Source of the DNA: Paramesorhizobium salinisoli
GTDB taxonomy: Bacteria; Pseudomonadota; Alphaproteobacteria; Rhizobiales; Rhizobiaceae
Direction: 5' to 3'
Assembly (NCBI RefSeq): GCF_003335045.1
Contig: NZ_QOZG01000001.1
Location: 1-64,000 of the forward strand
DNA length: 64,000 bases
The notes under the pieces are model-generated. The model saw only the letters and a program-made list of their open reading frames with translations. It was not told where the DNA came from and made no database searches. Below are positions 20,570 to 22,877 of this stretch, piece by piece; positions within the stretch are counted from its first letter, which is position 1, and the number at the start of each line of letters is the position of its first letter. A program made the translations under genes and the position numbers.

Positions 20570-21100
20570 TCATTCCTGAAAATCTCTCCACCAGCCCGCG
20601 TCCTCGCGGGCTTTTTCTATCTCTGAGAGGTCGCACTGCTGGCGCCATTGCTCAACAGTGCGCCCGTTGACCATCAGCCCAGGCGCAATCTCAGCCAACG
20701 GCACCAGTACGAAGGCCCGTTCTGTCATCCTCGGATGCGGCAGCGTGAGCGCCGGGTCCTGCAATGTCTCCACGCCTTCGAACGCCAGCACATCGATATC
20801 GATCGTGCGCGGCCCCCAGCGTTCCGCTCGCAGCCTCTTCATCTGCTTTTCTATGTCAAGGCAGGCTTCGAGCAGCGCGACGGGTGCGAGCCCGGTTTCC
20901 ACTTCCGCGCAGGCATTGTGGAACCAGGCCTGGTCGGTCTTGCCCCATGGCGGCGTGCGATAGACGGACGAGACGGCCACGACGCGGATATCGGCGCGCT
21001 GGTCAAGTGCGCAGAGCGCCCGGCCCATCGAAGCGACCGGATCGCCCATATTGCCGCCAAGACCGAGCCAGGCTTTGCGTATTTTTCCAGCCCCGCTCAT
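20570..21100 (-). CDS. folK: 2-amino-4-hydroxy-6-hydroxymethyldihydropteridine pyrophosphokinase
   Basis: A 176-residue HPPK of normal length. It has the start AWLGLGGNMGDP, the pterin-site motif SSVYRTPPWGKTDQAWFHNA, the Mg/ATP motif ERWGPRTIDIDVLAF with the two key aspartates, and LPHPRMTERAFVLVPLAEIAP. It transfers pyrophosphate from ATP to hydroxymethyldihydropterin, making the substrate for FolP. Its ATG overlaps the folP stop codon, so the two are translationally coupled and act in consecutive steps of folate synthesis. Confidence 0.96.
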   Translation of the reverse strand: MSGAGKIRKAWLGLGGNMGDPVASMGRALCALDQRADIRVVAVSSVYRTPPWGKTDQAWFHNACAEVETGLAPVALLEACLDIEKQMKRLRAERWGPRTIDIDVLAFEGVETLQDPALTLPHPRMTERAFVLVPLAEIAPGLMVNGRTVEQWRQQCDLSEIEKAREDAGWWRDFQE

Positions 21101-22035
21101 TCTGCCGCGCCGGATTCCAAAATAGCGTCGGCGACGGCAAGCGCATCCCTGTTCATCGCCACATTATGCACCCGGAATATGTCGGCGCCGGCGAGCCGGA
21201 GGATGGCAGAGGTCGCGGCCGTACCCGCATCGCGATCCGCCGCATCCCGGCCGGTCATTGCCCCGATCAGGCGCTTGCGCGACGTGCCGACAAGAAGCGG
21301 AAATCCGAAGCGCTGCAACTCGGCAAACCGCGCCATCAGCATGACGTTTTCGTGGCTGTCCTTGGCAAAGCCGAAGCCCGGGTCGAGCACGATGCGGCTT
21401 TCCTCGACACGCGCCGCACGGGCGATCCCGAGCGAGCGGTCGAGGAACGCGAACTGGTCGGCGATCACATCAGGATCGCGCTCCCGCTCGCGTCCCGTAT
21501 GCATGATGACAAGCCCCGCCCCCGTCTCCGCCGCCAGATCGGCAATCCCAGGTTCGTTGGCGATGCCAGGCTCGCCGTTTGCGATGCCAGGCTCGCCGTT
21601 TGCGATGCCAGGCTCGCCGTTTGCGATGCCAGGCTCGCCGTTTGCGATGCCAGGCTCGCGTTGCAATCCCCAGACATCATTGACGATATGCGCACCGGCA
21701 GCCACTGCAAGCCGCGCGGTCTGCTCGCGATAGGTATCCACGGAAATGATGCAGTCCGTGCTTTTCGCAAGCGCCCCGATCACTGGCAATATCCGTGCCT
21801 GCTCAGTCGCGGCATCGACAGGAACCGCGTCCGGCCGCGTCGACTCGCCGCCGACATCGATGATCGCAGCCCCCTGCTCCCGCATGGCATGGGCCGCAGC
21901 GAGCGCCCGCGGCAGATCGTCATGCAATCCTCCATCGGAAAAGGAATCAGGCGTGACATTCAGAATGCCCATGAGGATGGCCTTCTCGCCCAGGATCAGG
22001 CTGCGCCCATGGGCAAGCCGCCACTCTCTCCGCAT
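21097..22035 (-). CDS. folP: Dihydropteroate synthase with in-frame heptapeptide repeat
   Basis: A 312-residue DHPS. The TIM-barrel motifs are intact: LMGILNVTPDSFSDGG, DVGGESTRPDAVPV, VDTYR, HIVNDVWGL, GAGLVIMHTGR, DPGFGFAKD, LVGTSRKR and FRVHN. It condenses hydroxymethyldihydropterin pyrophosphate with p-aminobenzoate and is the sulfonamide target. Between VNDVWGLQR and DLAAETG the segment EPGIANG is repeated four times, then EPGIAN and EPGIAD, adding about 34 residues next to the fourth barrel strand. All copies keep frame, so the enzyme may still work. folK is coupled directly downstream. Confidence 0.95.
   Translation of the reverse strand: MRREWRLAHGRSLILGEKAILMGILNVTPDSFSDGGLHDDLPRALAAAHAMREQGAAIIDVGGESTRPDAVPVDAATEQARILPVIGALAKSTDCIISVDTYREQTARLAVAAGAHIVNDVWGLQREPGIANGEPGIANGEPGIANGEPGIANGEPGIANEPGIADLAAETGAGLVIMHTGRERERDPDVIADQFAFLDRSLGIARAARVEESRIVLDPGFGFAKDSHENVMLMARFAELQRFGFPLLVGTSRKRLIGAMTGRDAADRDAGTAATSAILRLAGADIFRVHNVAMNRDALAVADAILESGAAE
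21560..21658. repeat. 21-bp tandem repeat inside folP
   Basis: Five copies of the 15-base core gcgatgccaggctcg, separated by the 6-base linker ccgttt, give four full 21-bp units (21560-21580, 21581-21601, 21602-21622, 21623-21643) plus a partial fifth (21644-21658). A degenerate 18-base copy precedes at 21542-21559. Full units are identical, pointing to recent slippage or unequal exchange. The period is a multiple of three, so folP stays in frame. Confidence 0.98.
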
Positions 22036-22247
22036 TCCGCTCCAGCCTCCTCTTGATCGCCGACAATTCCGCCCAATGTTGTGACGACGAGATTTCGCCC
22101 CGTCAACCGGTCTCGGCGCGTGGATATTTATGACAATTATATTTGTCTTGACGATTCTGCGCCATGCTGGACCTATCCGCGATCAAAAATGTTATAATCA
22201 GACTGGAAGCTGCGCCGGACTGGAAGCTTCGAAGGAACCAGAGTGAA

Positions 22248-22877
22248 ATGATTTCCATGCCCAAGGTTCTGGCCTCGATGGCCATGGCGGCCGCGTTCGC
22301 CTTTGCGGTGACCACGACAGCTTCAGCCGCCAAGATCCACCGCAGCTACAGCTATTACAACGTCAATGGAAAGACGGCGGACGAACTTGACAAATCGCTG
22401 TCGCGCGGCGGCTATCTGCTGAAAAGTACTGGCCAGCGCCATCCCGGCGCTGCGCAGATCCGCTTCGACGCCAAGGCGCGATACGGTTCCAACGGCAAGG
22501 CCTGCAGCGTCACCGGTGTCTACGTCAATGTCTATGCGAAGGTTTTCCTGCCGCGCTGGAAGCAGCGCAGGAAGGCGCAGCCGGAACTGGCTCTCGTCTG
22601 GGATACGCTTTCTCAGGATATCCGGCGTCACGAGGAAAGCCACCTCGTCATCGCGCGCACCCATGCAGGCGAAATAGAGCGCCGGATAAGAGCGCTGCCT
22701 TCACGCCCGGATTGCGCGCTCCTGCGTCAGGACATCAACAAGGTGACCCAGCAGGTGATGAAGAATCACGAGGCCGCGCAAAAACGTTTCGATTTCGTCG
22801 AAACGCTCAATTTCGAGAAGCGCTTCGAGCGCCTGCTGACCTACCGGCTGGAACGCGAACTCGCCAAGAAGAATTAA
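22248..22877 (+). CDS. DUF922-family exported protein, putative zinc protease fold
   Basis: A 209-residue protein. I start it at ATG 22248 (an ATG at 22257 is also possible); either opens a signal peptide (MAMAAAFAFAVTTTASA). The mature part has the DUF922 features: SYSYYNVNGKTADELDKSL, an ACSVTGVYVNVYAKVFLPRW strand and the metal-binding-like HEESHLVIARTHA, an HExxH variant in the form of H-E-E-S-H. Two extra cysteines may pair. DUF922 proteins are secreted and of unproven peptidase function. Confidence 0.85.
   Translation: MISMPKVLASMAMAAAFAFAVTTTASAAKIHRSYSYYNVNGKTADELDKSLSRGGYLLKSTGQRHPGAAQIRFDAKARYGSNGKACSVTGVYVNVYAKVFLPRWKQRRKAQPELALVWDTLSQDIRRHEESHLVIARTHAGEIERRIRALPSRPDCALLRQDINKVTQQVMKNHEAAQKRFDFVETLNFEKRFERLLTYRLERELAKKN

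Follow-up and report, generated by a model that had tools for sequence, protein, structure and literature searches.

The folP gene of Paramesorhizobium salinisoli, which lies in the 64,000-nucleotide stretch of DNA that was analyzed (the window), contains an in-frame tandem array of heptapeptide units, and we are fairly confident that this is a tolerated coding minisatellite within an otherwise normal dihydropteroate synthase (DHPS) that is predicted to be active. Tolerance rather than function is the most likely status of the array; some effect could still follow from the insertion of 34 residues into a conserved enzyme on its catalytic side. The array is a clean natural case of a metabolic enzyme that apparently retained its function as a recent minisatellite lengthened it by these residues, in a stretch whose length is constant in all 80 of the best named relatives; a sister species carries an intermediate. 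It suggests where DHPS can tolerate an insertion and by itself has no bearing on drug resistance.

The tandem array in folP

The order of elements on the folP coding strand is VNDVWGLQR-[EPGIANG]x4-EPGIAN-EPGIAD-LAAETG (Table 1), and the unit is better written in the register [R/G]EPGIAN. TRF delimited the array at positions 21555 to 21659, with a period of 21 bp, 5.0 copies, 98% matches, and a score of 203. The original prediction had described four identical units and a partial fifth at 21542 to 21658, between VNDVWGLQR and DLAAETG; both flanks are correct in the translation, the coordinates agree to within a few bases with those of TRF and of the whole array, and the four DNA-identical units are confirmed, but we count six copies in place of four and a part. 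The units are in frame, as was claimed, and the reading frame is kept through all six. The fifth copy has GCC where the units have GCA and lacks GGC. The excess over P0002, a repeat-free relative from the genus, is 34 amino acids, or 102 bp (4 x 21 + 18), and the 18-bp step is, like the period, a multiple of three; near-identical units arranged head to tail, with such a period and inside a real gene, are the marks by which we classify the array as a coding minisatellite.

Table 1. Features of the folP array and its genes (window coordinates)
Feature	Position	Strand	Evidence or remark
Whole array, six copies EPGIA[N/D], containing the 34 extra residues	21538..21657	minus	
Four identical 21-bp units GAGCCTGGCATCGCAAACGGC (EPGIANG)	21574..21657	minus	exact genome matches
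EPGIANG units 1 to 4, in coding-strand order	21657-21637, 21636-21616, 21615-21595, 21594-21574		DNA identical
18-bp fifth copy GAGCCTGGCATCGCCAAC (EPGIAN), without the Gly codon	21556..21573	minus	
Diverged terminal (sixth) copy GAACCTGGGATTGCCGAT (EPGIAD), continuing into LAAETG	21538..21555	minus	
folP, dihydropteroate synthase, 312 aa (P0002 + 34 aa)	21097..22035	minus	TIGR01496, PF00809
folK (HPPK), overlapping the end of folP	20570..21100	minus	TIGR01498, 144 bits (cut-off, 54.1)

The unit GAGCCTGGCATCGCAAACGGC has four exact matches and one match with three mismatches (21553 to 21573), all within the array. Elsewhere in the 5.05-Mb genome no match was found at three or fewer mismatches, and a mobile or dispersed element was rejected on that ground. 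Such an array is uncommon in the genome: from 464 kb, made up of the window and 20 stretches of 20 kb each, TRF returned 21 arrays, and at least five copies were present only in folP. The highest TRF score in the 464 kb, above that of the folP array, belonged to a 54-bp tandem repeat of 2.7 copies with 98% matches (L128:3927-4070; G000:C2).

The repeat is real in the assembly. That its true copy number differs, through collapse or expansion of short reads, is very unlikely in our judgment: the genome is in 187 contigs, so that short reads were probably used, and tandem arrays are a usual source of such errors, but an array of about 105 to 120 bp should fit within a normal short read or read pair, the sister species, in a separate assembly, shows the initial duplication and an identical junction, and the 18-bp step, like the way in which outer copies differ from inner ones, speaks for genuine sequence. 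We regard as barely credible the proposal that the array acts as a nucleic acid structure, such as an mRNA or DNA hairpin. A 123-nt stretch gave z scores of -5.32 (RNA) and -4.13 (DNA) against dinucleotide shuffles, none of which folded as well; when the four units (84 nt) were compared instead with arrays in which a shuffled unit was repeated in tandem, 134 of 1,000 (RNA) and 77 of 1,000 (DNA) folded as well, and the z score mostly reflects repetition itself. Hairpin-driven function or instability was dropped, the fold being ordinary under this control.

Copy number in relatives and history of the array

The genus was represented by six genomes, one per species (G000, the present one, and G001 to G005). 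EPGIA occurs once in each of G001, G002, G003, and G005, twice in G004, where the copies read EPDIANG-ESGIAD, and six times in G000; copy number differs between related species and is not one fixed number in all of them. The further expectation that an alignment of FolP would show relatives to lack the repeat held for all 80 of the best named loci and for the four single-copy genomes of the genus, but not for G004. Those 80 loci, the best of 364 confirmed and inclusive of two genus members, all have 26 residues where the window FolP has 60. In a family search FolP was matched in 378 of 394 genomes, and the length of the match lay within 6 nt of the query in 149 of the 150 matches listed, G004 alone standing at +21 (the list was transcribed by hand, and the split match of G000 itself falls outside the count). 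A degenerate heptad pattern, which requires this motif and is blind to other insertions, was matched in 15 of 397 genomes of the order, among them G000, G004 being outside that draw; at the 14 other pattern loci tblastn found no FolP, with the G004 locus as the positive control.

The family search also yielded observations on FolP at large. In one genus of seven genomes (g91), no FolP match at an E value of 1e-20 was obtained in five small genomes of about 1.4 to 1.6 Mb (G095, G171, G230, G359, and G388), a possible loss of folate synthesis, and a match was present in the two larger genomes of 2.3 to 2.4 Mb. Two nearly full-length matches each were found in G038, G071, and G199, which possibly have a second DHPS; G351 also has two, the second lying outside the matches listed. 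One match (G094:C44:197084-197908) contains a single in-frame TGA, which reflects either a sequencing error or a disrupted gene.

A tree of eight neighboring genes joined G000 and G004 at 99.9/100 (SH-aLRT/UFBoot). Four of those genes were not found in the corresponding stretch of G005, and the four-gene set present in all six genomes joined the two species likewise at 99.9/100; the split of G001 and G005 was weaker (94.5/91 and 88.2/83). The tree was rooted on G003 by assumption. Because G000 and G004 are sisters and the 15-mer ATCGCAAACGGCGAG spans the repeat junction in both, one 21-bp duplication probably took place in their common ancestor, followed by expansion in G000. We infer a single origin, an Arg-to-Gly step, and a slippage mechanism: a tandem duplication would have copied a folP stretch of approximately CGC GAG CCG GGG ATC GCC AAY (R-E-P-G-I-A-N), and at the junction CGC (Arg) would have become GGC (Gly), after which G004 would have retained its single extra copy, which then diverged, and the array in the G000 lineage would later have grown to six by replication slippage or unequal recombination, two routes that the sequence does not distinguish. 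Since 21 bp are seven codons, every such step would preserve the frame. Independent duplications in G004 and G000 are a less probable alternative, to which the divergence of the copies leaves some room. The step of 18 bp between the fifth and sixth copies needs something beyond pure 21-bp slippage, either a loss of 3 bp or a separate 18-bp event. Expansion or homogenization of the array is recent, because folP dS between G000 and G004 is 0.60, yet no site differs among the four units; the original prediction had reached the same view from that identity.

The enzyme and the site of insertion

The gene encodes a DHPS, as was predicted, and scores above both curated cut-offs (TIGR01496, 284.4 versus 162.6 bits; PF00809, 234.8 versus 25.5 bits). 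A PF00809 profile search of the genome at an E value of 0.001 gave five matches in four genes and no second classical DHPS; of the other three genes, one, an open frame of 1,282 aa, presumably encodes MetH, and the remaining two presumably encode a methyltransferase-like protein of 320 aa and an H4MPT-type protein of 465 aa. FolP thus appears to be the sole folate DHPS of the genome. Columns N26, T66, D100, N119, D218, K254, R288, and H290, which we take to be substrate-binding or catalytic residues, are invariant in 51 aligned sequences. Because these columns are kept and dN/dS is about 0.10, FolP is under purifying selection. A folP that is losing its function, with the insert as a mark of relaxed constraint, might be suspected from the 34 residues inserted where length is constant in 80 of the 80 best named loci; we consider such decay highly improbable, given a dN/dS between G000 and G004 of 0.103 over 285 codons, inside the range of 0.092 to 0.169 for all 15 genus pairs, the retention of the substrate-binding columns, the lack of any other classical DHPS among the PF00809 matches at that threshold, and a frame maintained from the first copy to the last.

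Several observations concern the neighborhood of folP. The gene directly adjoins folK (window positions 21097 to 21100), with no folB between them. Among the 80 named loci (L011 to L090), folK was detectable in 78, being adjacent to folP in 21 (Phyllobacterium, Paramesorhizobium, some Mesorhizobium, and a Pseudaminobacter) and separated from it in 57 by a gap of 300 to 520 bp, a size that would fit folB. In the available passages of one paper, folB is reported between folP and folK in Rhizobiales, and a Zn-dependent protease is reported to flank folP (PMC6335563); a DUF922 protein beside folP in the window (22164 to 22877) may be that protease. The sole FolB-family match found in the genome (G000:C3:476127-476447; L109) is situated less than 2 kb from the H4MPT-type DHPS-like gene (C3:474250), and either that FolB-family gene or another enzyme may carry out the folate aldolase step.

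The insert follows residue 132 of P0002, in alpha5, and is the only insertion in the window FolP relative to that protein. It starts about 13 residues past the invariant Asn119, at the face of the barrel on which the strands terminate, which in the DHPS fold is the side of the active site. An AlphaFold2 monomer model built from 51 sequences had a mean pLDDT of 84.5, with 201 of 312 residues at 90 or above, and all 50 of the Foldseek PDB matches listed were DHPS by title, one under the old name dihydropteroate pyrophosphorylase; the predicted fold is the (beta/alpha)8 barrel of DHPS. Residues 128 to 159 had a pLDDT below 50, with helices at 128 to 131, inside the low-confidence stretch, and at 164 to 171. 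The family without the repeat, modeled from 50 sequences headed by the repeat-free relative L011, gave a pLDDT of 91.4 and one helix at 129 to 137. In these models the repeat is probably a disordered loop that opens helix alpha5 near its start, although low pLDDT may reflect poor prediction instead of disorder. The extra residues would bulge out on the catalytic side as a disordered, Pro- and Gly-containing loop, far in sequence from loop 2 and alpha6, and the barrel and substrate-binding residues would be left intact, so that selection would tolerate the array.

Sulfonamide response and comparison with known systems

DHPS is the enzyme targeted by sulfonamides, and the original prediction had inferred that repeat number might alter sulfonamide sensitivity. 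This inference finds no support here, although it is not disproved, because the resistance insertions that could be placed lie elsewhere and no phenotype for the organism was found. The insert site corresponds approximately to residue 128 of E. coli DHPS, extrapolated from the alignment offset, and precedes both loop 3 (Met148) and alpha6 (Phe190) of that enzyme. A folP insertion is also reported, by citing papers, in Haemophilus influenzae; the comparison of sites covers the other organisms named below. In the passages of the sources available, resistance insertions with readable sites are found in loop 2 or the alpha6 region: those of one or two residues in Streptococcus pneumoniae fall in the loop-2 stretch, residues 58 to 66 (PMC3886935), and the Ser-Gly insertion of Neisseria meningitidis, the Phe-Gly insertion of E. 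coli, and that of Sul fall in the alpha6 region (PMC10328974). The present repeat is instead in alpha5.

The same papers, in the parts available, provide an argument for adaptive tuning, that is, a selected contingency locus in which repeat number alters a loop near the active site and with it DHPS activity or sulfonamide binding: in pneumococci and meningococci, insertions of one or two residues accompany sulfonamide resistance (PMC3886935 and PMC10328974), and the Phe-Gly insertion confers it in E. coli (PMC10328974). The insert is moreover on the catalytic side, and its expansion is recent. We nonetheless hold adaptive tuning to be unlikely. Counted along the chain, more than 50 residues separate the site from either loop 2 or alpha6; no substrate-binding column is altered; the cut-off is missed for each of the four Sul resistance models (Sul1, 87.4/600; Sul2, 124.2/575; Sul3, 113.2/475; Sul4, 186.3/600 bits); and phenotype or exposure data for the organism were looked for and none were found. 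An unstable, still-changing length switch, with coexisting copy numbers and a loop on the alpha5 side whose length tunes DHPS turnover or inhibitor binding, is quite unlikely; if it were true, alpha5 would be a route that is not among the resistance insertions that could be placed.

We favor a tolerated coding minisatellite, and several systems resemble it in part. No heptad repeat in a bacterial DHPS was found in the open-license library that was searched, judged mostly by titles and the beginnings of abstracts, nor did any paper in it contain folP, tandem repeat, and in-frame together as whole words. The resistance insertions of bacterial FolP are, as far as the available passages describe them, likewise in frame and in chromosomal folP, and some are duplications, but each adds just one or two residues, close to the sulfa-binding site, in contrast to 34 residues in alpha5. 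The KE257 duplication of Staphylococcus aureus, which is classed in the part of the source available as a secondary resistance mutation, is also a duplication inside a DHPS helix, but one of two residues and in another helix, alpha8 (PMC6057106). The ppe VNTRs of Mycobacterium tuberculosis share with the folP array an in-frame change of copy number inside coding sequence; the pe/ppe genes are described in the accessible text as predominantly nonessential in vitro (PMC12817950), unlike the conserved metabolic enzyme considered here, for which no second copy was found. A heptad VNTR in DHPS is an idea already known from Plasmodium vivax, whose DHPS, in the passages available, has a seven-residue tandem repeat, GEAKLTN, of which field isolates carry several length types (PMC4969723 and PMC3098820). 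That enzyme is from a malaria parasite, its unit is unrelated in sequence, and polymorphism within the species has been shown for it, whereas one genome of P. salinisoli was compared here and the difference in copy number is one among related genomes, with one genome per species. In both, seven-residue units are repeated in tandem in the same enzyme, and copy number changes by whole units.
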